From: Zoogloea sp.
Lineage (GTDB): Bacteria; Pseudomonadota; Gammaproteobacteria; Burkholderiales; Rhodocyclaceae
Assembly: GCF_023150065.1 (NCBI RefSeq)
Contig: NZ_JAKLLN010000028.1
Location: 1-53,593 of the forward strand
DNA length: 53,593 bases
Reading direction: 5' to 3'
Shown: positions 4,850 to 20,096 of the stretch, in pieces
Layout of the letters: every line of letters begins with the position of its first letter
Position numbering within the stretch: position 1 is the stretch's first letter
The notes under the pieces: model-generated
The model's input: the letters and a program-made list of their open reading frames with translations, nothing else
What the model was told of the DNA's origin: nothing
Databases searched by the model: none
Program-made: the position numbers and the translations under genes

Positions 4850-4873
4850 TACATACATTCGTGAATGTATAAA
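4850..4873. promoter_or_regulatory. AcrR/TtgR-like operator between tetR and the efflux operon
   Basis: The arms ATACATTC and GAATGTAT (4852-4869) are perfect inverted repeats around a central GT. The wider site TACATACATTC...GAATGTATAAA is, from memory, nearly identical to the E. coli AcrR operator. The right arm runs into TATAAA (4868-4873), a possible -10 for the efflux operon, so repressor binding would block polymerase. Confidence 0.8.
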
Positions 4874-4918
4874 ATCATGCCCCAACACCAACTAAAAATC
4901 CAGCCCCCGGAGGCCTCC

Positions 4919-6115
4919 GTGACTGTCCACTCAACGCCCCTTCCCCGCGCCCTGCGCACCTCCCTCCCCGTCATCGCCCTGTCTGCCCTGGTCCTGTCGG
5001 CCTGTTCCGGCAAGGATCAGGCGCCCGCCGGGCCGCCGGGGGGCGCCATGCCGGCACTGCCCGTCACCGTGCTCGAAATGAAGCCGACCCGCGTCGACAG
5101 CAGCGTCGAGGCAGTGGCCCAAACCGAGGGCGCCCGCGAGGTGGAAGTCCGCGCCCGGGTCGGCGGCATCGTCATGAAGCGCCTGTTCGAGGAAGGCGCG
5201 CCCGTCCACGCCGGCCAGCCCCTGTTCCAGCTCGACAAGGCGCCCTTCGAAGTAGCCGTCGCCCAGGCCCGGGCCAACCTGGCCCAGGCCAAGGCCCGCG
5301 CCGAGCAGACCGACCGCGAGGCCGCCCGCCTGAAGGGCCTGCTGGCCGAACAGGCCATCAGCCAGCGCGAATACGACACCGCCGGCTCCGACAAGGCCGC
5401 CGCCCTGGCCGCCGTGCAGTCCGCCGACGCCGCCCTGCGCCAGGCCGAGCTCAACCTCGGCTGGTCCACCGTGACCGCCCCGGTGGCCGGCACCAGCGGC
5501 CGCGCCGTGATTTCTGAAGGCAACCTGGTGGCCACCAACAGCCTGGTGACCAGCGTGGTCCAGCTCAACCCCATGTGGGTGCGCTTCTCGGTCTCCGAGG
5601 CCGAACTCAACGCCGCCACCCCCAGCGGCCGCTTCAAGCCCCAGGTGGTGCGTGGCGTCGAGCTGATCCTGCCCGATGGCAGCACTTACCCGGTGCGCGG
5701 CAAGCTCAACTTTGCCGCCAGCCAGGTCAGCCCGACCCTCGGCACCCTGCAGCTGCGGGGCGAGTTCCCCAACCCCGACGGCACCCTGCTCCCCGGCCAG
5801 TTCGTGCGTGCCCGCCTGCTTACCGGCGAGCGTGATGGCGTCTTCCTGGTGCCTCAGAGCGCCGTGATGCAGAGCGACAAGGGTGCGGTGGTGATGCTCG
5901 CCAACGCCGACAACAAGGTGGAGCCGCGGCCCGTAAAGACTGGCCAATGGAGCGGCAATGACTGGGTGATCCTCGGCGGCCTGAAGGCCGGTGACAAGGT
6001 CATCATCGACAACCTGATCAAGACCCGCCCGGGCGCCCCGGTGGCCCCCCACGCGCCGGGTGAAGGCCCTGGCGCCAAGCCGGCTGCAGCGCCGGCCGCG
6101 CCGGCCAAGGGTTGA
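4919..6115 (+). CDS. RND efflux periplasmic adaptor lipoprotein (AcrA/MexA family)
   Basis: The membrane fusion protein that bridges the RND pump and the outer-membrane channel. A GTG start at 4919 is preferred: GGAGG (4909-4913) lies five bases upstream, and it gives a 398-residue protein with a compact lipoprotein signal ending in LSAC (lipid-carrying Cys29). An in-frame ATG at 4865 falls inside the repressor operator, so it is unlikely. Following the signal come the lipoyl half-motifs (EVRARVGGIVMKRLFEEGAPV and, after the hairpin, GWSTVTAPVAGTSG), a coiled-coil hairpin rich in Ala/Gln/Glu (about 115-180), and beta-barrel and membrane-proximal domains. The C-terminus is a Pro/Ala-rich tail. 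It is the first gene of a three-gene operon. Confidence 0.93.
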   Translation: MTVHSTPLPRALRTSLPVIALSALVLSACSGKDQAPAGPPGGAMPALPVTVLEMKPTRVDSSVEAVAQTEGAREVEVRARVGGIVMKRLFEEGAPVHAGQPLFQLDKAPFEVAVAQARANLAQAKARAEQTDREAARLKGLLAEQAISQREYDTAGSDKAAALAAVQSADAALRQAELNLGWSTVTAPVAGTSGRAVISEGNLVATNSLVTSVVQLNPMWVRFSVSEAELNAATPSGRFKPQVVRGVELILPDGSTYPVRGKLNFAASQVSPTLGTLQLRGEFPNPDGTLLPGQFVRARLLTGERDGVFLVPQSAVMQSDKGAVVMLANADNKVEPRPVKTGQWSGNDWVILGGLKAGDKVIIDNLIKTRPGAPVAPHAPGEGPGAKPAAAPAAPAKG

Positions 6116-6129
6116 GGGGGTCGCCGTCC

Positions 6130-9100
6130 ATGTCACGCTTCTTCATCAGCCGACCGATCTTCGCCTCGGTCATCTCCATCGTCATCGTGATCGCAGGCCT
6201 GATGGCCTCCCTCACCCTGCCGGTGGCCCAGTACCCCGAGATCACCCCGCCCACGGTGATCATCTCCGCCACCTTCCCCGGCGCCAACGCCGAAACCCTT
6301 TCCAAGACCGTCGCCGCCCCCATCGAGGAGCAGCTGTCGGGCGTGGAAGGCCTGATCTACTACAACTCCCAGAGCACCTCCAACGGTACGGTGAGCATCA
6401 CCGCCACCTTCGAGGTGGGCACCAACCCCGACACGGCGCTGATCGCCGTTAACAACCGGGTCAAGGTGGCCGAGCCGCGCCTGCCCGATGACGTGCGCCG
6501 CACCGGCGTGCTGGTGCAGAAGCGCTCCAACAACATATTGATGTTCGCGGCCCTGCGCTCCCCCGACAACACCTTCGACGCCCTTTACCTTTCCAACTAC
6601 GTACTGGTCAACGTCATTGAGGAGATCCGTCGCATTCCAGGCGTAGGCGACGCCCAGCAGTTCGACCCGGTCTACGCCATGCGTGTGTGGCTGAAGCCCG
6701 ACGTGATGGCCAAGATGGGCATCACCACCTCCGACGTGGCCGCCGCCATCCGGGTACAGAACACCCAGAACGCTGCCGGCAAGATCGGCGCCGAGCCGGT
6801 GATCAATGGCCAGCAGCTCACCTATACCGTCACTGCCAAGGGCCGCCTGCTGACCCCCGACGAGTTCGGAAACATCGTGCTGCGCGCCGACGGCGCCAAC
6901 GGCTTGGTACGCCTGAAGGACGTGGCACGCCTGGAGCTGGGCGCCGACGGCTACGACCGCAGCGCCCGCGTGAACGGCGCCCCGGTGTCCGGCATGGGCA
7001 TCTATCTGCAGTCGGGCGCCAACGCCCTGGACACCGCCAAGCGCGTCCGTGCCCGCCTGGATGAAATGTCCAAGCAGTTCCCCAAGGGGATAGAGTACTT
7101 CGTACCCTACGACACCACCCGCTTCATCCAGGAATCCGCCAAAGAGGTGACCCACACCCTCATTGAAGCAGCCCTCCTGGTGATCGCCGTGGTGTACCTG
7201 TTCCTGCAGAACTGGCGCGCCACTCTCATCCCCATTGTGGCGGTGCCGGTGTCCCTGATCGGCACCTTCGCCGGCATGTGGCTGTTCGGCTTCTCCATCA
7301 ACACCCTGACCCTCTTCGCCATGGTGCTGGCCATCGGCATCGTGGTGGATGACGCCATCGTGGTGCTCGAGAACGTCGAGCGCCTGATGAGCGAACGCAA
7401 GATGTCCCCCAAGGACGCCGCCATCGAGGCCATGCGCGAGGTCTCGGGCGCCGTCGTGGCCATCGTGCTGGTGCTGTGCGCAGTATTCGTGCCGGTGGCC
7501 TTCCTGGGCGGCATCGCCGGGGTGCTCTACAAGCAGTTCGCCGTGACGGTGGCGGTGGCGGTGGTGATCTCGGGCATCGTCGCCCTGACCCTCACCCCGG
7601 CCCTGTGCGCGCTGCTGCTCAAGCCGACCCACGAAGAGAAGCCCCTGTTCCGCCCCTTCAACCGCTTCTTCGACAGCTTCACCCGCAGCTACACCAACAC
7701 CGTCGGCCTGACCCTGCGCCACGGCATCATCGGCACCCTGGTGTTCCTGCTCACCATCGCCGCCGCCGCGGGCCTGCTGCGCATCGTGCCGGGCAGCTTT
7801 GTGCCGGCCGAAGACCAGGGCTACCTGTTCGGCTTCGTCACCCTGCCGGATGGCGCGTCCACCCAGCGTACCGGGGTGGCCGCGGAGCAGATGCGCCAGC
7901 GCATCATGTCCGACGACATCGAGAACATCTTCTTCATCAATGGCGTCGACTTCATCACCGGCAACGCCCGCCCCAGCGTGGCCACCACCTTCATCATCTT
8001 CAAGCCCTGGGACCAGCGGACGGTGACCACACCCGAGATGGCCGGCAAGTTCATGGGCATCGGCATGAGCCTGCCCGACGGCATGGGCCTGGTCTTCAAC
8101 CCGCCCCCCATCCAGGGCCTCGGCACCGCCGGTGGCTTCGAGGTGTACGTGCAGAACCGCGCCGACGGCGACCCGCGCACCCTGGCCACCGTCAACGCCC
8201 AGTTCGTCGAAGCCCTCAAGAAGCGCCCCGAGCTGACCGGCGTCAACACCTTCTTCCGGGTCACCGCGCCCCAGCTGTACGTGGAGGTGGACGAACCCAA
8301 GGCCCTGTCCATGGGCATCCCCCTGGAGAGCATCTACGCCACCCTGCAGGCCAGCACCGGCACCCTCTACGTCAATGACTTCAACCGCAGCGGCAAGACC
8401 TACAAGGTCCAGCTGTCGGCCGACGCAGCCTACCGCATGAAGCCGGAAGACCTGCTCAAGCCCTACGTGCGCACCGCCACCGGCACCATGGTGCCCCTGT
8501 CCGCCGTAGCCACGGTGAAGACCATCACCGGCGCCGAGATGGTGGAACGCTTCAACGGCTTCGTGTCGGCCAAGGTGCTGGGCAACGCCGCCCCGGGCTT
8601 CAGCTCCGGCGACGCCATCAAGGCCGTCGAAGAGGTTGCCCAGGCCAGCCTGCCCGAAGGCTACCGCACCGAATGGGTCGGCCAGGCCTTCCAGGAAAAG
8701 CGCACCGGCAGCGCCTCCATCATCGCCTTCGTGTTCGGCATCATCATGGTCTTCCTGATCCTTGCCGCCCAGTACGAAAAGTGGTCCCTGCCCCTGGCGG
8801 TGATCATGGCCGTGCCCTTCGCCATGCTCGGCGCCCTGGTGGCCGTGCTGATGCGCAACATGCCCAACGACATCTACTTCCAGATCGGTCTGGTGGTGCT
8901 CATCGGCCTGGCCGCGAAAAACGCCATTCTGATCGTCGAGTTCGCCGCCCAGAAGCAGGCCGAGGGCATGAAGGTGGTGGATGCGGCCATCGAAGCGGCC
9001 CGCCTGCGCTTCCGCCCCATCGTGATGACCTCCCTGGCCTTCATCCTCGGCGTGCTGCCCCTGGCCCTCTCGTCGGGCGCCGGCGCCGCGGCACGGCGCT

Positions 9101-9252
9101 CCATGGGCACCGGCGTGGTGGGGGGCATGATCGCCGCCACCTTCATCGCCACCATCTTCATCCCGCTGTTCTTCAAGTGGCTGAGCCGCAACACGCCGCG
9201 CCCCCCGACAGATGACCTGCCGCATGCCGGCACCCAGGAGGTGAAGCCGTGA
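6130..9252 (+). CDS. RND multidrug efflux pump, HAE1 family (AcrB/MexB-like)
   Basis: A 1040-residue inner-membrane, proton-driven trimeric pump. The start MSRFFISRPIFASVI at 6130 is the standard HAE1 N-terminus. Proton-relay residues are present: the Asp pair in GIVVDDAIVVLENVER (TM4) and the Lys in GLAAKNAILIVEFAA (TM10). TM1 lies at about 10-28, with the TM2-6 block near 335-500 and the TM8-12 block near 860-1020; two large periplasmic loops carry the porter and docking domains. Length and motifs match AcrB, MexB and TtgB, which export hydrophobic antibiotics, dyes and solvents; the actual substrate range is unknown. It lies 14 bases after the adaptor gene and overlaps the channel gene by four bases, so subunit synthesis is probably coupled. 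Confidence 0.95.
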   Translation: MSRFFISRPIFASVISIVIVIAGLMASLTLPVAQYPEITPPTVIISATFPGANAETLSKTVAAPIEEQLSGVEGLIYYNSQSTSNGTVSITATFEVGTNPDTALIAVNNRVKVAEPRLPDDVRRTGVLVQKRSNNILMFAALRSPDNTFDALYLSNYVLVNVIEEIRRIPGVGDAQQFDPVYAMRVWLKPDVMAKMGITTSDVAAAIRVQNTQNAAGKIGAEPVINGQQLTYTVTAKGRLLTPDEFGNIVLRADGANGLVRLKDVARLELGADGYDRSARVNGAPVSGMGIYLQSGANALDTAKRVRARLDEMSKQFPKGIEYFVPYDTTRFIQESAKEVTHTLIEAALLVIAVVYLFLQNWRATLIPIVAVPVSLIGTFAGMWLFGFSINTLTLFAMVLAIGIVVDDAIVVLENVERLMSERKMSPKDAAIEAMREVSGAVVAIVLVLCAVFVPVAFLGGIAGVLYKQFAVTVAVAVVISGIVALTLTPALCALLLKPTHEEKPLFRPFNRFFDSFTRSYTNTVGLTLRHGIIGTLVFLLTIAAAAGLLRIVPGSFVPAEDQGYLFGFVTLPDGASTQRTGVAAEQMRQRIMSDDIENIFFINGVDFITGNARPSVATTFIIFKPWDQRTVTTPEMAGKFMGIGMSLPDGMGLVFNPPPIQGLGTAGGFEVYVQNRADGDPRTLATVNAQFVEALKKRPELTGVNTFFRVTAPQLYVEVDEPKALSMGIPLESIYATLQASTGTLYVNDFNRSGKTYKVQLSADAAYRMKPEDLLKPYVRTATGTMVPLSAVATVKTITGAEMVERFNGFVSAKVLGNAAPGFSSGDAIKAVEEVAQASLPEGYRTEWVGQAFQEKRTGSASIIAFVFGIIMVFLILAAQYEKWSLPLAVIMAVPFAMLGALVAVLMRNMPNDIYFQIGLVVLIGLAAKNAILIVEFAAQKQAEGMKVVDAAIEAARLRFRPIVMTSLAFILGVLPLALSSGAGAAARRSMGTGVVGGMIAATFIATIFIPLFFKWLSRNTPRPPTDDLPHAGTQEVKP

Positions 9253-10691
9253 TCCGCCCCCGTCTGACCCTGCTCGCCCTCGCCATTCCCCTGGCCCTGG
9301 CCGGCTGTGCCATCGGCCCCGATTACCAGCGCCCCGACGCCCGCGTAGCGCTGCCCGACAGCTACGCCAATGAGCCCGTGGCGGCCGCGCCGGCCACCAC
9401 GCCGGCGCTTGCCGGCCGCTGGTGGACCCTGTTCGGCGATGCGCAGCTCGACACCCTGGTGGACCAGGCCCTGGCCAGCAGCCCGGATGCCCTGAGCGCC
9501 GCCGCCCGCATCGAAGAGGCCGACGCCGTACTGCGCCAGGTGAATGCCGCGCTGCTGCCCCAGATCGACGCCAACGCTGGCATCTCGCGCAGCCGCAGCA
9601 TCCTGCCCAACACCAACCCGCCCAGCGGGCTGGTGCGCAATACCAACAAGATCGGCCTGTCCACGTCCTTCGAGCTGGATGTGTGGGGCAAGCTGCGGCG
9701 CGCCTCCGAAGGCGCCCGGGCCCAGGCCCTGGGCACCCGCTACACCGCCGAGACGGTGTCCCTGAGCCTCGCCGCCAGCGTCACCCAGGCCTATCTCAAC
9801 CTGCGCGCCATCGACGCCCAGCTGCTGGCCAACCGCGACTCGGTGAGCAGCCAGGCCAAGAGCACCCAGCTGACCCGCATCCGCTTCGATCGGGGCTACG
9901 TGTCGCAACTGGATGTACAGCAGGCCGAAGGCGCCCTGGCCACCTACACGGCGGCCCAGGTACAGCTGGAGAAGAGCCGTGCCCTGGCCGAAAGCCTGCT
10001 CGGCCTGCTGGTCGGCCAACCCGGCCTCAAGCTGGCCCCGGGCGACCTGCGCAGCCTGCCGGTACCCCCGGCACCGCCGGCCGGCCTGCCCTCCAGCCTG
10101 CTCGAAGCCCGCCCCGACGTGCGCAAGGCCGAAACCGACCTGATCGCCGCCAACGCCCGGATCGGCGTGGCCAAGGCCGCCCTGTTCCCGAGCATCACCC
10201 TGACCGGAACCTTCGGCCGGGAGAGCCGCGACCTGTCCGATCTGTTCAGCCCGGCCGCCGCGGTATGGTCCATCGGCAGTGGCCTGACCCAGCCCATCTT
10301 CGAAGGCGGCCGTCTGCGCGCCCAGGTGGAACAGGTCAGCGCCCAGCAGAAGCAGAGCCTCGAGGCCTACCGCAAGTCGGTGCAGACCGCCTTCCGGGAG
10401 GTGAACGATGCCCTGATCACGGTGCGCCAGAACGGCGAGAGCGAGGTTGCCCTCAACCAGGCCATGCAGGCCGCCAAACGCAGCCTGCAGCTCGCCCAGA
10501 CCCGCTACGACAGCGGCTACTCGCCCTACCTGGAAGTGCTGACGGCCCAGCGCACCAGCAACGACGCCACCGTGGCCTGGGTGCAGAACCGCCAGGCCCG
10601 GCTGTCCTCGGCGGTGGATCTGTTCAAGGCCCTGGGCGGTGGCTGGAAGGACAGCAACGCCAGCGTCGCCCCCCAGGCCGCAGCCCGCTGA
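9249..10691 (+). CDS. outer-membrane efflux channel lipoprotein (OprM/NodT family)
   Basis: A 480-residue TolC-type channel. The GTG start at 9249 overlaps the pump stop (GTGA). The signal peptide ends in a lipobox LAGC (Cys20), followed by IGPDYQRP, the signature of the OprM/CusC/NodT family. Two repeated outer-membrane-efflux domains follow: the first half contains FELDVWGKLRR, the second LTQPIFEGGRLRAQVEQ and TRYDSGYSPYLEVLTAQR. It completes the tripartite pump. A strong bidirectional hairpin lies immediately downstream. Confidence 0.94.
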   Translation: MIRPRLTLLALAIPLALAGCAIGPDYQRPDARVALPDSYANEPVAAAPATTPALAGRWWTLFGDAQLDTLVDQALASSPDALSAAARIEEADAVLRQVNAALLPQIDANAGISRSRSILPNTNPPSGLVRNTNKIGLSTSFELDVWGKLRRASEGARAQALGTRYTAETVSLSLAASVTQAYLNLRAIDAQLLANRDSVSSQAKSTQLTRIRFDRGYVSQLDVQQAEGALATYTAAQVQLEKSRALAESLLGLLVGQPGLKLAPGDLRSLPVPPAPPAGLPSSLLEARPDVRKAETDLIAANARIGVAKAALFPSITLTGTFGRESRDLSDLFSPAAAVWSIGSGLTQPIFEGGRLRAQVEQVSAQQKQSLEAYRKSVQTAFREVNDALITVRQNGESEVALNQAMQAAKRSLQLAQTRYDSGYSPYLEVLTAQRTSNDATVAWVQNRQARLSSAVDLFKALGGGWKDSNASVAPQAAAR

Positions 10692-10696
10692 TGCTG

Positions 10697-10726
10697 ACTG
10701 AGGCGCCCGCCCCCGGGCGCCTCAGT
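10697..10726. terminator. bidirectional hairpin terminator between efflux and catabolic operons
   Basis: ACTGAGGCGCCCG and CGGGCGCCTCAGT form a perfect 13-bp stem around CCCC. It lies between convergent genes and its right arm contains the stop codon of the aldolase gene on the minus strand. There is no long T-run on either strand. Confidence 0.7.
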
Positions 10727-11522
10727 AGGAAGACCCCGGGGCGTCGCTCGACGCCCCGCCCTTGTACGACGCACACAGGCTGGACGTCGCCGCCGCCAGC
10801 AGCATCGAATCCACCCCCACGGCGATGAAACGCGCCCCGGCCTCCCGGTAGCGCGCCACCAGGCCCCGGTCGCCGCACAGCACGCCGCCGGCCTTTCCGC
10901 AGGCCGCCACCCGGGCCAGGCCCTGTTCGATCATGGCAACGATCTCCGGGTGATTCGACTCCCCGAGCAGACCATAGGACGCCGCCAGATCGGCCGCGCC
11001 GAAGAACACCCCATCCACCCCGTCCACCGCCAGGATTGCGTCCAGCTCGGCCATGCCGGCTCGGGTTTCCACCTGCACGAGCAGGCACATGGCGTCGTTG
11101 GCGCGCTGGGCATAGTCACCGATGCGGCCCCAGCGGGAGGCCCGGGCAATCGAGCTGCCCACCCCGCGGATGCCCGCCGGCGGGTAGCGCATGGCCTCCA
11201 CCAGGTGGGCGGCCTGTTCGGCCGACTCCACCATGGGGATCAGCAGGGTCTGCACCCCGGTCTCCAGGAGCTGCTTGATGAGTACATGGTCGCCCTGGGG
11301 CGGGCGCACCACCGGCTGGGACGCGTAAGGGGCAATCGCCTGGAGCTGGGCGAAGATGGTGCGCAGATCATTGGGGCCGTGCTCGGCGTCGATCAGCAAC
11401 CAGTCAAAGCCGGCGCCGGCACAGATCTCGGCGCTGAAAATCTCGGACAGGCCCAGCCACAGGCCGTATTGCAGGTCGCCGGCGAGCAGGCGCTGCTTGA
11501 AGGGGTTGTCGGGAAACTCCAC
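10722..11522 (-). CDS. HpcH/HpaI-family class II pyruvate aldolase
   Basis: A 266-residue aldolase of the HpaI/YfaU/GarL family, which cleaves 4-hydroxy-2-oxoacids to pyruvate or related ketoacids plus an aldehyde. Visible landmarks are the catalytic-base region LIDAEHGPND, the substrate-binding PVVRPPQGD, the metal-ligand Glu in LVQVETRAGM, and the metal-ligand Asp in VFFGAADLAAS. A GTG start at 11522 follows AGGAG. The upstream operon already encodes a DmpG-type aldolase, so this enzyme may accept another chain length or a substituted ring-cleavage product (inference). It lies 31 bases after the flavoprotein gene and probably shares its transcript, which is separated from the meta-pathway operon by the terminator at 12325-12361. 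Confidence 0.88.
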   Translation of the reverse strand: MEFPDNPFKQRLLAGDLQYGLWLGLSEIFSAEICAGAGFDWLLIDAEHGPNDLRTIFAQLQAIAPYASQPVVRPPQGDHVLIKQLLETGVQTLLIPMVESAEQAAHLVEAMRYPPAGIRGVGSSIARASRWGRIGDYAQRANDAMCLLVQVETRAGMAELDAILAVDGVDGVFFGAADLAASYGLLGESNHPEIVAMIEQGLARVAACGKAGGVLCGDRGLVARYREAGARFIAVGVDSMLLAAATSSLCASYKGGASSDAPGSSY

Positions 11523-13735: not shown

Positions 13736-14671
13736 TCAGCCCGTCAGTACGGTCAGGAAGCTCTCGCGCACCACGTTGTCCTGGGCAAAGGTGGCGTGGC
13801 CCAGTTCGGTGGTGTCCCAGGTCAGGGTCGGGGTGTCCGGGTAGTGCACATAGCCACCGGAAAACACCTCGTTGCGGTTGCCCGAGGGATCGAAGAAGTA
13901 GATGGTGGCGCCGCGCGTGACACCATGGCGGTTGGGGCCCACGTCCACCGGGATGCGGTACTTGCCGATGAGGTCGGCGGCGTGGATCACGTCGGTCACC
14001 GATTCGAGCAGGAAGGAGACGTGGTGGAAGCGCCCCGGGGTGGGCTGCAGCACGAAAGCGATGTCGTGGGGCTTGGTGGAGCAGCTCAGGAACAGGGCCA
14101 GGGACTGGCCGCTGTCGGCGTCGATGAGGCGCTCGCTCAGGTCAAAGCCGAACACCTCGGTAAACAGCCGCGCCGACTCGTCGATGTTCACGCCCCCCAC
14201 CAGGGCATGGTCGAGGCGGTTGATGCGGAAGCCGCGGATCACCCCCTCGTCGGGCATCACGCCGGGGTTGAGCAGGGGCAGGTTGTTGCCGGTCTGCTCC
14301 TTGTGGGCATACAGCTGCATCACGTGGCCGCTGGGCAGCGTAAATTGCAGGCGCCGCCCGCTCTTGGGGTACACGCCGGCCTCGATGTGCTCCACCTGCA
14401 GGCCGAAGGCGCGGATCTTCGGCTCCAGCGCATCCAGGGTGGCGTCGTCGAAGACCTTGAAGGCAAAGTAGTCCATGCCCGACGACTCCGCCTCGCGCAG
14501 CACCAGGCAGTGGTGGTCGTGCTCGTCCCAGGCCTTGAAATAGACCTGGCCGGCGGCGTCGGTCATGACCTCGTGCAGGCCCATGCGCTTGCCGTAGTGC
14601 TCGCGGGCTTCGCCCATGTCGAGTACGCGTATCGCCACTTCGCCCATGCGAAGCAATCCTCTGAGTGCCAT
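13736..14671 (-). CDS. catechol 2,3-dioxygenase (extradiol, type I)
   Basis: A 311-residue enzyme that opens catechol next to the diol to give 2-hydroxymuconic semialdehyde using Fe(II) and O2. It has the two-domain vicinal-oxygen-chelate fold, and the opening ALRGLLRMGEVAIRVLDM is characteristic of XylE/DmpB. Predicted iron ligands are His155 (NRLDHALVGG), His216 or His217 (GRFHHVSFLLE) and Glu268 (NRNEVFSGG); the extradiol signature runs around HGVTRGATIYFFDPSGNR. GGAG precedes the ATG. It is the ring-cleavage step of the operon, though it is encoded downstream of the later steps. No XylT-type reactivating ferredoxin is visible next to it. dmpB/xylE are the equivalents. Confidence 0.95.
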   Translation of the reverse strand: MALRGLLRMGEVAIRVLDMGEAREHYGKRMGLHEVMTDAAGQVYFKAWDEHDHHCLVLREAESSGMDYFAFKVFDDATLDALEPKIRAFGLQVEHIEAGVYPKSGRRLQFTLPSGHVMQLYAHKEQTGNNLPLLNPGVMPDEGVIRGFRINRLDHALVGGVNIDESARLFTEVFGFDLSERLIDADSGQSLALFLSCSTKPHDIAFVLQPTPGRFHHVSFLLESVTDVIHAADLIGKYRIPVDVGPNRHGVTRGATIYFFDPSGNRNEVFSGGYVHYPDTPTLTWDTTELGHATFAQDNVVRESFLTVLTG

Positions 14672-14737: not shown

Positions 14738-15781
14738 TCAGGCCGCCACGGCCTTCAGCAGGCCGCGCTCCCTGGCCATGGTCATGGCGGTGTCCATGAT
14801 CATGTCTTCCTGGCCGCCGATCATCTTTTTGCGGCCCAGCTCCACCAGGATGTCCCGGGCCGGCACACCAAAGCGGTCGGCGGCGCGCTTGGAGTGGAGC
14901 AGGAAGGTGGAATACACGCCGGCAAAACCCAGGGTCAGGGATTCGCGATCGACGCGCACCACGTGCTCCATCATCGGCACGATGATCTCCTCGGCCACGT
15001 CCATGAGCTTGAAGAGATCGACGCCGGTGTCGATGCCCATGCGCTCGCACACGGCGGCAAAGACTTCCAGCGGCGTGTTGCCCGCCCCCGCCCCCAGCCC
15101 GGCCGCCGAGCCATCGATGCGGGTGGCGCCGGCCTCGATGGCGGCGATGGAGTTGGCGATGCCCATGCCCAGGTTGTGGTGGCCATGAAAGCCGATCTCG
15201 GTTTCCGGCTTGAGCACGGCGCGCAGGGCGCCGATGCGGGCCTTCACGTCGTCCGGCAGCATGTAGCCGGCGCTGTCGGTGACATACACCGTGTGGGCGC
15301 CGTAGCCTTCCATCAGCTTGCCCTGGCGGGCGATGCCCTCGGGGTCGTTGAGGTGGGCCATCATCAGGAAGCCGGTGGTGTCCATGCCCAGCTTGCGGGC
15401 AAAGGCGATGTGCTGGGGCGCGGTGTCGGCCTCGGTGCAGTGGGTGGCCACGTGCACGCTGCGGGCGCCGCAGTCGTAGGCCGACTGCAGCTCCTTCATG
15501 GTGCCCAGGCCGGGGATGAGCAGCACCGACACCTTGGCCTGGGTCATCTTCGAGGCCACGGCGGAGATGTATTCCTCGTTGCTGTGGGGCGCAAAGCCGT
15601 GCTGCAGCGAGTTGCCCCCCAGGCCGGCGCCGTGGGTGACCTGGATGTAGGGCACGCCGGCCGCGTCCAGAGCGGTGGCGACCTTGACCATCTGGTCGAG
15701 GCTGATCTGCTCGCGCTTGGCATGCATGCCGTCACGCAGGCACATGTCGTGCAGGATGATTTTCTTGCCTTTGAGATCCAT
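14738..15781 (-). CDS. 4-hydroxy-2-oxovalerate aldolase
   Basis: A 347-residue DmpG/BphI/MhpE-type aldolase that splits 4-hydroxy-2-oxovalerate into pyruvate and acetaldehyde. The HMGL-like TIM barrel begins [19 protein letters not shown], with the metal-binding Asp and catalytic Arg; [15 protein letters not shown] supplies the two metal-binding His residues. The C-terminal domain, which contacts the dehydrogenase partner, is full length. The ATG at 15781 is chosen because GGAG lies six bases upstream; a TTG four codons earlier overlaps that site. It lies 21 bases after the dehydrogenase gene, its known complex partner that receives acetaldehyde through a channel. Equivalent to dmpG. Confidence 0.95.
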
Positions 15782-15802: not shown

Positions 15803-16711
15803 TTACGCGACGGCGGTCAGCCTGATGCTGCCCTTGAGGATCTCCTCGGCGAACATCTCGGCAGTACGGGTGGCGGCGGCGGTCATGATGTCCAGGTTGC
15901 CGGCGTAGCGCGGCAGATAGTCCCCCAGCCCGGCCACCTCCATGAACACCTGCACCTTGTTGCCGTCGTAGATCGGCCCATTCACCAGGCGGTAGCCCGG
16001 CACGTACTTCTGCACTTCCTTGATCATCTGCAGGATGGACTCGGTGATCCGGGCCTCGTCCGGCGCCTCGTCGGTGAGGCAGGAGATGGTGTTGCGCATG
16101 ATCATCGGCGGCTCGGCCGGGTTGATGATGGCCAGGGCCTTGCCCTTGCGCGCGCCGCCCACCTTCTCGATGGCGCCGGAGGTGGTGTAGGTGAACTCGT
16201 CCAGGTTGGCCCGGGTGCCGGGGCCCACCGACTTGGACGACAGGCTGGCCACGATCTCGGCGTAACCCACGCCCTGGGTGCGCGACACGGCATTGACGAT
16301 GGGAATGGTCGCCTGGCCGGCACAGGAGATCATGTTCACGTTCATCTCCACCTTGTCGGCGTGCTGGCGCAGGTTCACCGGCGGCACGCACAGGGGGCCG
16401 ATGGCGGCGGGCGTCAGGTCGATCATCATCACGCCCAGGGCGTTGAGCTTGCGGCTGTTCTCCGCATGCACGTAGGCGCTGGTGGCGTCGAAGGCGATCT
16501 GGATGTTGTCCTCCAGCACGTGGGGCAGCAGCCCATCCACGCCGTCGGCGGTGGTCTTGAGGCCCATCTCCCGGGCCCGGGCGAGGCCTTCGGAGGCCGG
16601 GTCGATGCCCACCATCCACACGGGCTCCAGCACCGGGCTGCGCTGGATCTTGTAGATCAGGTCGGTGCCGATGTTGCCCGAGCCGATCAGGGCGCAGCGG
16701 ATCTTCTTCAT
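15803..16711 (-). CDS. acetaldehyde dehydrogenase (acylating)
   Basis: A 302-residue DmpF/BphJ/MhpF-type enzyme converting acetaldehyde, CoA and NAD to acetyl-CoA. [18 protein letters not shown] is the NAD-binding start, and the catalytic Cys lies in [13 protein letters not shown]. Start at 16711 follows a good AGGAG and overlaps the stop of the tautomerase gene (ATGA). A longer upstream frame is only the tautomerase region read in another frame. Together with the aldolase it forms the channeling complex that ends the meta pathway. Equivalent to dmpF. Confidence 0.95.
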
Positions 16712-16923
16712 GCCGTTTTCTCCTGGGCCCGGGCGGCGGCGCGCTGGGCCATGGTCTGGCCGGCCACGTAGAAGCCGTCGGTGGCGTGTTCGGTGATCAG
16801 GATGCGCACCGTGTCGGCGCTGCATTCCAGGCTCTTCGCCACCGCCTCGGTTACCGCAACGGCAACCTTGTTCTTCTGCTCGGTGGTACGGCCCACCATC
16901 ATGTGCATCTCGATAATTGGCAT
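16708..16923 (-). CDS. 4-oxalocrotonate tautomerase
   Basis: A 71-residue protein beginning [17 protein letters not shown]. Met removal exposes catalytic Pro1; residues RILITEH near position 46 fit the second conserved strand. It isomerises 2-hydroxymuconate to 2-oxo-3-hexenedioate, the step between the semialdehyde dehydrogenase and the decarboxylase. Small 4-OT proteins are 60-72 residues and hexameric. It lies 49 bases after the fusion gene and overlaps the acetaldehyde dehydrogenase start by four bases. Equivalent to dmpI/xylH. Confidence 0.92.
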
Positions 16924-16972: not shown

Positions 16973-18619
16973 CTACGCGACGAAGCGCATGGACACGCTG
17001 CCCAGCTCCTGGAAGCGGGCGATGACGCTGTCACCGGGCTTGACCGCGATGGCCTCGGTGATCCCGCCGCTCATCACGAAGCTGCCCGCCGGCAGGCCCT
17101 CGCCCAGCTCGGCCAGGATGTTCACCAGCATGGCGATGGCCTCGGCCGGGTGGCCCAGCACGGCGGCCGCGCTGGCCATGGCCACCAGCTCGCCGTTCTT
17201 CTCCATCACCACGCCCAGGGTGGCCAGATCCACGTCGTCCACGTAGCGGGCCCGGCCACCGCCCACGAAGCGGGCCGACGAGCCGTTGTCGGCCACCACG
17301 CTGGGCAGGTCGAACTTGAAGCCGGAAAAGCGCGAGTCGATGATCTCCACCGCCGGCAGCACGTAGTCGGTGGCGTCCAGCACGTCCTGGCGGGTGCAGC
17401 CGGGGCCCTGCAGGGCCTTCTTCATCACGAAGGCCACCTCGCACTCGACGCGGGGATGCACCAGGTCGGCGGTGGAGATGGCCGAGTTCTCGGGGCGGGC
17501 CATGCGGTCGGTGAGAAAGCCAATGGACGGCACGTTGACGCCCATCTGGATCATCTTGGCCTTCGAGGTCAGCCCGGCCTTCCAGCCCACCTGCTTGTGG
17601 CCTGCGGCCAGGAAGCGCTGGCGCAGGGCCAGCTGCACGGCATAGCCGTCGCCGATGGTCATGCCCGGGTATTCGTCGGTGAGCTTGGGGATGGCGCGGG
17701 CCCGGGTCTGGGCGCCTTCGATGCGCTCGCACAGGCGCACCACGTCCTCGCGGCCCAGGGTCAGGTTCATGCCGGCGGTGCCACTGCCCGGTCGGGCTTC
17801 GCTGCCAGGCGCAGCCGCGCTGGCGGTGGTGCTCTGCCCGGCAAACTTCACCCGGCAGCTGCCCAGGCCGCCCACCGTACACACCAGTTCGTCCCCGTCC
17901 ACCACCGGCACCAGGGCCGACTGGGAGCCGGACAGGATCACCTCGCCGGCCTTGAAGGGGATGCCCAGCTCGCCCAGGGTGTTGGCCAGCCAGGCCACCG
18001 CGTTGGCGGGGGAACCCTGCACGGCGGCGCCGACGCCGGTGGAGAACAGCTCGCCGTTCTTCTCCAGCACCATCCCGGCCAGGGTGATGTCCAGCTTGCG
18101 CGGGTCGCCCTTGGTCTTGCCCAGCACATACACGCCGCAGGAGGCGTTGTCCGCCACGGTGTCCTGGATCTTGATCTTCCAGTCGGTGATGCGCGAATCG
18201 ACGATCTCGAAGCAGGGCAGCACGTAGTCGGTGGCGCGGATCACGTCCATGGCGGTGATGCCCGGGCCCTTCAGGTCTTCCTTGAGCACGAAGGCCAATT
18301 CGGCCTCGGCCTTGGGCTGGATCAGGGTGCCCAGGTCGATGGTGTCGCCCTCGCTGTACACCATGCCCGACAGCAGGATGCCGAAATCCGGCTGATAGAC
18401 GCCCAGGAAGTCCTGCACCGGCTTGCTGGTGGCGCCGATCTTCTTGCCGATCACCCGCTCGCCGGCCGCCACCCGGCGGGCCACGAAGCGCTCCTGGATG
18501 CGGTAGGCGTCGGCGATGGTGATGTCCGGCTCACGCTCCAGCAGCGGGCGGATCGCGCGGCGACTGACGAAAGCCTCGTAGAGCTCGTCGCCGTATTGGT
18601 GGATCTTTTCTTCGTTCAT
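16973..18619 (-). CDS. bifunctional fusion: 2-oxopent-4-enoate hydratase / 4-oxalocrotonate decarboxylase
   Basis: One uninterrupted 548-residue frame holds two tandem members of the hydratase/decarboxylase (FAH-like) family. Residues 1 to about 260 resemble the hydratase (DmpE/XylJ): GKKIGATSKPVQDFLGV, QPKAEAELAFVL, FEIVDSRITDWKI. After a Ser/Ala/Gly/Pro-rich linker (about 261-283), residues 284-548 resemble the decarboxylase (DmpH/XylI): GWKAGLTSKAKMIQMGV, HPRVECEVAFVMK, VEIIDSRFSGFKFD. Each half keeps the paired Glu metal ligands. The second half still begins with Met (codon at 17770) but has no clear internal ribosome site. In pseudomonads the two enzymes are separate but form an obligate complex, because the decarboxylation product is unstable. 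The start at 18619 is preferred over ATG 18625 because AAGGA is seven bases upstream. Which half performs which step rests on similarity. Confidence 0.9.
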   Translation of the reverse strand: MNEEKIHQYGDELYEAFVSRRAIRPLLEREPDITIADAYRIQERFVARRVAAGERVIGKKIGATSKPVQDFLGVYQPDFGILLSGMVYSEGDTIDLGTLIQPKAEAELAFVLKEDLKGPGITAMDVIRATDYVLPCFEIVDSRITDWKIKIQDTVADNASCGVYVLGKTKGDPRKLDITLAGMVLEKNGELFSTGVGAAVQGSPANAVAWLANTLGELGIPFKAGEVILSGSQSALVPVVDGDELVCTVGGLGSCRVKFAGQSTTASAAAPGSEARPGSGTAGMNLTLGREDVVRLCERIEGAQTRARAIPKLTDEYPGMTIGDGYAVQLALRQRFLAAGHKQVGWKAGLTSKAKMIQMGVNVPSIGFLTDRMARPENSAISTADLVHPRVECEVAFVMKKALQGPGCTRQDVLDATDYVLPAVEIIDSRFSGFKFDLPSVVADNGSSARFVGGGRARYVDDVDLATLGVVMEKNGELVAMASAAAVLGHPAEAIAMLVNILAELGEGLPAGSFVMSGGITEAIAVKPGDSVIARFQELGSVSMRFVA

Positions 18620-18635
18620 GGTCATGTCCTTGCGG

Positions 18636-20096
18636 TCACAGCTTCACGCACACGTTCCGTGTCTCGGTGTAGAACTCCAGGGAATGCACCCCGCCCTCGC
18701 GGCCGATGCCCGACTGCTTGGAGCCGCCGAAGGCCGTGCGCAGGTCACGCAGGAACCAGCTGTTGATCCAGGTGATGCCCACCTCGATGTGCGCGGCCAT
18801 GCGGTGGGCGCGGGCCAGGTTGGTGGTCCAGATGGTGGTGGAGAGGCCGTAGTCGGTGTCGTTGGCCAGGGCCACCACCTCGTTCTCGCTGTCGAAGGGG
18901 CGGATGTGGCAGCACGGGCCGAAGATCTCCTCCTGCACCACGGCGGCGCTCTCGGGCAGGCCGGTCCAGATGGTGGGCTGCACCCAGGCGCCCTCGGCCA
19001 GCTCGCCGGGCATGTCGGGCACGCCGCCGCCGGTCACCACCGTGGCGCCCTCCTCCACCGCCTTGCGGTAGTAGGACAGCACCTTCTGGCGGTGCTCCTG
19101 GCTGATCAGCGGGCCGTAGTTGGCGGCGTGGTCCTCGGGCCGGCCAAACTTCACCGCCTCGGCCTTTACCTTGAGGGCGGCGACGAAGCGCTCGAAGATC
19201 GGCCGCTCCACATAGACCCGCTCGGTGCCCAGACACACCTGCCCGGTGTTGAGGAAGGCGGAGCGGAAGATGCCATCCACCGCCGCGTCGAAATCGGCGT
19301 CGGCAAACACGATGCCGGCGTTCTTGCCGCCCAGCTCGAAGGACACGTCGCGCATGCCGTCGGAGGCGGCCTTCATGATGGCGGCGCCAGTGCGGGTCTC
19401 GCCGGTGAAGGTGATGGCATCGACGCCCGCGTGACGGGTCAGGAACTCGCCGGCGGAGTCGGGCCCGAAGCCGTGCACCACGTTGTAGACGCCCTTGGGG
19501 ATGCCCACCGCGTTCATCACCTCGCCCAGCAGGGCCGCCGTGTGGGGCGACTCCTCGGAGGGCTTCACCACCACCGTGTTGCCACAGGCCAGGGCCGGGC
19601 CCACCTTCCAGGTCATCAGCAGGAAGGGGGCGTTCCACGGGCTGATCACGCCCACCACGCCCTTGGGCACGCGGACGGCGTAGTTGAGCGCGCCCCGGCC
19701 GTCGGGCGTGGACATCTGGAAGGACTCGGTGGGCACGTTCTTGACCACATCGGCAAAGACCTTGAAGTTGGCCGCGCCGCGGGGGATGAAGACGTGGCGC
19801 ATGACGTGGGACGGCTGGCCGGTGTCGGCCATCTCGGCGGCCACGAAGTCTTCGAAGCGGCGGGTGATCTCGTCGGCCACGCCGTAGAGCAGATCGACGC
19901 GCTGCTCCAGGGTCAGGCCGCCCCACTCGCCGTTCAGGGCCGCACGGGCGGCACACACCGCCGCATCCACCTCGTCCCGCCCCGCCTCGGTGATGCGGGC
20001 GATGACGCTGTTGTCCAGGGGCGAACGCTTCTCGAAGGTCTTGCCGCTGAGCCCGGCGGTGTATTCGCCGCCGATGAAATTCTGGATGAGACGCAT
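18636..20096 (-). CDS. 2-hydroxymuconic semialdehyde dehydrogenase
   Basis: A 486-residue NAD-dependent aldehyde dehydrogenase that oxidises the catechol ring-cleavage product to 2-hydroxymuconate. Catalytic Glu254 (FELGGKNAGI) and Cys288 (NTGQVCLGTERVY) are intact, and ISPWNAPFLLMTWKVGPAL is the cofactor-binding stretch. The start and end of the protein (RLIQNFIGGEY and the REGGVHSLEFYTETRNVCVKL region) fit the DmpC/XylG subgroup. It is the first gene of the operon, 16 bases upstream of the fusion gene. With no hydrolase present it commits the pathway to the oxalocrotonate branch. Confidence 0.93.
   Translation of the reverse strand: MRLIQNFIGGEYTAGLSGKTFEKRSPLDNSVIARITEAGRDEVDAAVCAARAALNGEWGGLTLEQRVDLLYGVADEITRRFEDFVAAEMADTGQPSHVMRHVFIPRGAANFKVFADVVKNVPTESFQMSTPDGRGALNYAVRVPKGVVGVISPWNAPFLLMTWKVGPALACGNTVVVKPSEESPHTAALLGEVMNAVGIPKGVYNVVHGFGPDSAGEFLTRHAGVDAITFTGETRTGAAIMKAASDGMRDVSFELGGKNAGIVFADADFDAAVDGIFRSAFLNTGQVCLGTERVYVERPIFERFVAALKVKAEAVKFGRPEDHAANYGPLISQEHRQKVLSYYRKAVEEGATVVTGGGVPDMPGELAEGAWVQPTIWTGLPESAAVVQEEIFGPCCHIRPFDSENEVVALANDTDYGLSTTIWTTNLARAHRMAAHIEVGITWINSWFLRDLRTAFGGSKQSGIGREGGVHSLEFYTETRNVCVKL

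Follow-up and report, generated by a model that had tools for sequence, protein, structure and literature searches.

The window analysed here, a stretch of 53,593 nucleotides from a Zoogloea sp., carries on its minus strand a frame (16973-18625) that is open throughout and that encodes a fused hydratase-decarboxylase gene (16973-18619) of 548 codons, from an ATG at 18619 to the stop codon at 16973-16975; an alternative ATG at 18625 would add two residues to the fused protein. Three parts can be distinguished on this strand: (i), a hydratase half of the DmpE/XylJ type (2-oxopent-4-enoate hydratase, residues 1-263, 17831..18619); (ii), a linker (residues 264-283, 17771..17830); (iii), a decarboxylase half of the DmpH/XylI type (4-oxalocrotonate decarboxylase, residues 284-548, 16976..17770). 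The linker, TTASAAAPGSEARPGSGTAG, is rich in Ser, Thr, Ala, Gly and Pro (18 of its 20 residues), and the old start Met of the decarboxylase is kept directly behind it as residue 284 (codon 17768-17770). Each half matches the Pfam family FAA_hydrolase, and their membership in DmpE and DmpH is given by scores that both exceed the NCBI equivalog cut-offs and outscore the sister families. The N half reaches 455.2 bits with TIGR03220 (dmpE, cut-off 408.8) versus 224 with TIGR03218 (dmpH), the next-best sister family being HpaH (247, under the HpaH cut-off of 351.5), while the C half reaches 428 bits with TIGR03218 (cut-off 350.55), followed by dmpE at 216.3, under 408.8; the lead of the own family over that of the other half is 231 bits for the N half and 212 bits for the C half. 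The original prediction, which had read this locus as two tandem hydratase/decarboxylase domains in one frame, joined by a Ser/Ala/Gly/Pro linker and with the old Met of the second half retained at this very junction, is thus borne out, including its naming of the two enzymes. Acidic triads are invariant in both halves (E105, E107 and E138; E392, E394 and E425) in an alignment of 22 rows, 20 of them distinct (2 repeats); we take these three residues (ExE...E) in each domain to be the metal ligands of FAH-superfamily metal-dependent enzymes.

The fused gene sits in a meta-cleavage operon whose genes follow one another on the same strand: 2-hydroxymuconic semialdehyde dehydrogenase as the upstream neighbour (18636..20096; TIGR03216, 895.7 bits, cut-off 693.25), the fusion, a 4-oxalocrotonate tautomerase-type protein of 71 residues (16708..16923; Pfam Tautomerase, 42.6 bits, cut-off 22), acetylating acetaldehyde dehydrogenase (15803..16714; TIGR03215, 459.6 bits, cut-off 282.25), 4-hydroxy-2-oxovalerate aldolase (14738..15781; TIGR03217, 550.1 bits, cut-off 286), catechol 2,3-dioxygenase (13736..14671; TIGR03211, 367.4 bits, cut-off 320.2) and an SDR protein. 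The phenol/catechol meta cluster of Zoogloea oleivorans has the same order according to PMC7012976, with the difference that hydratase (ORF 18) and decarboxylase (ORF 19) are there separate, overlapping genes. The order is retained in the corresponding stretches from G019, G007, G011, G002, G001 and G013, where the nearest unfused relatives have separate genes at the equivalent operon position; the listings for G007, G001 and G013 have no close catechol 2,3-dioxygenase in the interval from aldolase to SDR, and the stretch from G011 stops within the SDR gene. The window's own genome (G000) holds further hydratase and decarboxylase copies that are unfused to each other, among them a pair at G000:C111:394379-395973 (L120 8376-9970) with 63-68% and 55-56% identity to the two fused halves, so that the fusion is dispensable for the chemistry. 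Beyond the catechol genes lies an RND-type efflux set (HlyD, AcrB-like and outer membrane efflux protein, 4865-10691), and an HpcH/HpaI aldolase-family gene (10722-11522) stands on the operon's strand beyond a flavodoxin-fold gene.

The fused gene had been ascribed to a single bacterium, which proves too narrow. Single-frame copies occur in 4 of 23 genomes of the genus (the own genome, G007, G011 and G019), the other three proteins being 94-96% identical to that of the window, and their linkers measure 20, 22, 22 and 20 codons respectively, lengths that differ by whole codons. The orthologous pair is unfused in seven of the 23 (G001, G002, G003, G006, G013, G014 and G015), G012 shows just a partial decarboxylase at the edge of a contig, closest to the unfused G001, and no close pair is listed in the other 11, several of which are incomplete. 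In the domain trees (61 rows each) the four fused genes lie on one branch, with SH-aLRT values of 95 and 98, and each tree needs one change of state between unfused and fused. Judging from these trees, the fusion appears to be specific to this clade and to have originated once, inside Zoogloea. Searching for further fused copies, as had been proposed, therefore yielded three more within the genus and none beyond it: the window's own was the only single-frame copy among genomes sampled from the family (249), the order (399), the class (369) and the phylum (398), sets which partly overlap and each include the own genome, and of which the best 3-5 candidates per genome were scored at cut-offs of 1e-110, 1e-120, 1e-120 and 1e-110, where distant or reverse-order fusions would escape. 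Five other matches in these samples cover both halves of the query, each with one internal stop. A scan with exact peptide patterns of the window's protein, run on the best 80 of 572 relatives (79 loci), found only L028 and L029 fused, the same loci as G011 and G007, and among plasmids, where 542 records matched, the 40 rows among the matches listed are each made of two pieces. No paper reporting the fusion was found in the open-licence literature, as judged by titles and the opening lines of abstracts.

When modelled with AlphaFold as one chain (input alignment of 22 rows, 20 distinct), the protein forms two confident domains (mean pLDDT 87.9, pTM 0.86) connected by a stretch of very low confidence (residues 263-282, pLDDT <50). 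The modelled C half overlays the 4-oxalocrotonate decarboxylase NahK (5d2f) with 1.0 Å over 263 residues, the putida G7 NahK entries 5d2f and 5d2i contributing decarboxylase chains only to the matches; other close folds are the complex 8ih6, MhpD and HpcG. Of the comparison of such a model with the separate complex that had been suggested, this covers one chain, with both domains well folded and 8ih6 among the close folds. The XylI/XylJ, DmpH/DmpE complex (crystal structure 8ih6, from Pseudomonas sp. AP-3) represents both enzyme families of the fusion and covers its two pathway steps; it is built of two polypeptides, whereas the Zoogloea protein is one. One study of the separate enzymes reports that the decarboxylase (4-OD) stays fully active when combined with a hydratase mutant that is itself nearly inactive. 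Meta pathways already offer a precedent for fusing two enzymes from this superfamily: HpcE/HpaG (1gtt, 1i7o), naturally built of two domains and sharing the fold, acts in steps of another meta pathway, although as an isomerase/decarboxylase it catalyses other reactions than the fusion described here. According to PMC12718150, it is a single protein in E. coli and split into HpaG1 and HpaG2 in other bacteria. A relationship to HpcE over both domains was not recovered by single-sequence phmmer (E 0.4, only 74 residues). Structurally, HpcE aligns along both halves of the model, with an rmsd of 21 Å over 363 residues and not as one rigid body, which suggests that the lobes of this one-chain model are arranged otherwise than in HpcE.

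Both halves are under purifying selection, and hence likely kept as working enzymes, given their low dN/dS across the six pairs of fused genes (0.050-0.099 for the hydratase, 0.083-0.120 for the decarboxylase), while the linker, short and with few changes, gives 0.11-0.86. Elsewhere in the dN/dS comparisons, those of the L014 decarboxylase with L013, L015, L016 and L018, misaligned by one codon (dN about 3), are excluded. Z. oleivorans is 95% identical to the hydratase half and 89% to the decarboxylase half (its decarboxylase lies at G002:C39:54429-55301), and dN/dS values against it of 0.07-0.08 and 0.14-0.21, respectively, indicate that the decarboxylase half evolved faster. In the hydratase tree the fused genes group with Z. 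oleivorans (93-94), and the hydratase data reject placing them among the other Zoogloea (p-AU 1.7e-8) or with G001 alone (4.7e-5). In the decarboxylase tree they group with G001 (81-84), and these data are compatible with the Z. oleivorans grouping (p-AU 0.31). The identity scan along the fused gene showed no switch at the junction, and different histories of the two halves, with recombination at the joint, are not supported by these comparisons. Within the hydratase, the first ~330 bases (18287-18619) have an identity of 0.82-0.92 to Z. oleivorans versus 0.72-0.90 to G001/G013, a shift in similarity that suggests an old recombination inside the hydratase gene.

We consider it likely that the gene encodes a single-chain, clade-specific version of the known decarboxylase-hydratase complex, a protein that would be bifunctional for two consecutive meta steps. 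The C half would decarboxylate 2-oxo-3-hexenedioate, and its product, 2-hydroxypenta-2,4-dienoate, would be hydrated to 4-hydroxy-2-oxovalerate by the N half, with the tether setting a 1:1 ratio and holding the two partners together, presumably in an assembly like that of the separate complex. Tethering may also bring a kinetic benefit, including faster transfer of the dienol. Alternatively, the joining could be neutral, both halves working while the tether, without kinetic gain, only fixes their ratio or persists by drift; this explanation is compatible with a single chain, and we give it a substantial chance, somewhat short of even. It would agree with the survival of unfused orthologous pairs in seven other genomes of the 23 and in other relatives, and with a linker that evolves faster than the domains, and it is opposed by the retention of the fusion in all four clade members seen, across synonymous distances of up to 0.31.

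The single-chain reading draws further on the junction, which we compared with unfused pairs in a survey of 106 loci; after removal of 8 repeats and of 10 loci with one half missing, cut or elsewhere, it comprised the 4 fused genes and 84 unfused pairs, 58 of them close (decarboxylase at least 70% identical) and 26 distant. In all 58 close pairs the end of the hydratase overlaps the start of the decarboxylase, by exactly 4 bases in 53, and the ribosome-binding site of the decarboxylase lies within the last codons of the hydratase. The sequence upstream of the decarboxylase start is GGAAGGAG in 24 of these pairs, GGGAGGAG in 15, GGCAGGAG in 5 and another in 14. The four fused genes all read GGGCAGAGC at the old site, with the old Met behind the linker, and ~60 bases of linker stand in place of the gene overlap. 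In the window the remnant is visible as codons GGG CAG AGC (Gly-Gln-Ser; 17831..17839, minus strand), identified by junction alignment and anti-Shine-Dalgarno pairing, where the close relatives mostly have GGA/GGG AGG AGC/T (Gly-Arg-Ser). Pairing energies, calculated for fused and unfused genes alike from the start with the strongest pairing, range from -12.0 to -6.6 kcal/mol in the 58 close pairs (median -8.0) and from -1.8 to -2.2 kcal/mol in the fused genes. The latter is background strength: across 17 genes of the window, the in-frame ATGs inside the gene (166 in all) have a median of -2.5, and 14 of them reach -6.6. We therefore propose that the ancestor was an overlapping pair whose second gene started from a ribosome-binding site in the last codons of the first; an in-frame linker of ~60 bases would then have supplanted the stop/start overlap and the site would have decayed, although the mutational steps may have come in another order. 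Since the site is at background in all four fused genes and the Met stands behind the linker, the decarboxylase has probably lost its independent translation, and the enzyme would now be made mainly or only within the fused chain. As to a copying of the linker from elsewhere in the own genome, a DNA search of that genome with 98 bases returned, among the 40 matches listed, the locus itself and short matches, the best non-self match among these having an E of 0.005 over 37 bases.

A second alternative is that the fused frame nevertheless yields two proteins, either because the kept Met starts some free decarboxylase or because the linker is cleaved after translation. Met 284 or its counterpart is retained in all four fused genes, the very low model confidence of the linker is typical of disordered stretches, and decarboxylase genes can have weak sites: 21 of the 26 distant unfused pairs fall below the strength of -6.6, two of them being no stronger than the fused genes, and the presumed starts of the 17 window genes pair at -11.6 to 2.6 (median -5.1), so that an internal start at some level could still occur. 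With a site present in every close unfused pair and reduced to background in every fused gene, we nevertheless regard a two-product locus as quite improbable. The third alternative, an assembly or sequencing error that deleted a stop codon (a refutation that the original prediction had named for itself), has a negligible chance even in a draft genome of 251 contigs, and we rule it out as the source of the fusion, since the same in-frame fusion recurs in four genomes with linkers differing by whole codons, the three other proteins are similar to the window's without being identical to it, the junction carries ~60 extra bases rather than a lost stop, and one fused copy sits in a contig of 1,982,819 bases. 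The proposal of a channelling complex fixed in one chain is partly supported: there is a true fusion of the right enzyme types, in a small clade rather than one bacterium and with a degraded ribosome-binding site, whereas the putative activities of the halves, a channelling of 2-hydroxypenta-2,4-dienoate and assembly into the complex are drawn from the known biology of the separate pair.

A stronger version of the single-chain reading would make the protein an obligate metabolon, in which the unstable dienol passes within one assembly from decarboxylase to hydratase better than in the separate pair, and would read the loss of the internal site as a sign that the cell can do without free decarboxylase; this we hold to be doubtful. 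Nature has supplied a matched pair in the fused genes and the close unfused relatives of Z. oleivorans, with which one can test cleanly whether a covalent tether improves the transfer of an unstable intermediate and, more generally, whether partner enzymes work together better when joined. The junction itself preserves a record of the way in which overlapping genes can turn into a fusion. Other configurations occur at this junction elsewhere. In Aromatoleum diolicum (L061, near 6800-6900), a separate insertion of ~99 bases lengthens the hydratase and the two frames are kept. In 20 distant loci (L030-L046, L084, L109 and L114) the two genes are in-frame with one stop (17 loci) or two (3 loci) between them, so that loss of stops could fuse them; all 20 retain at least one.
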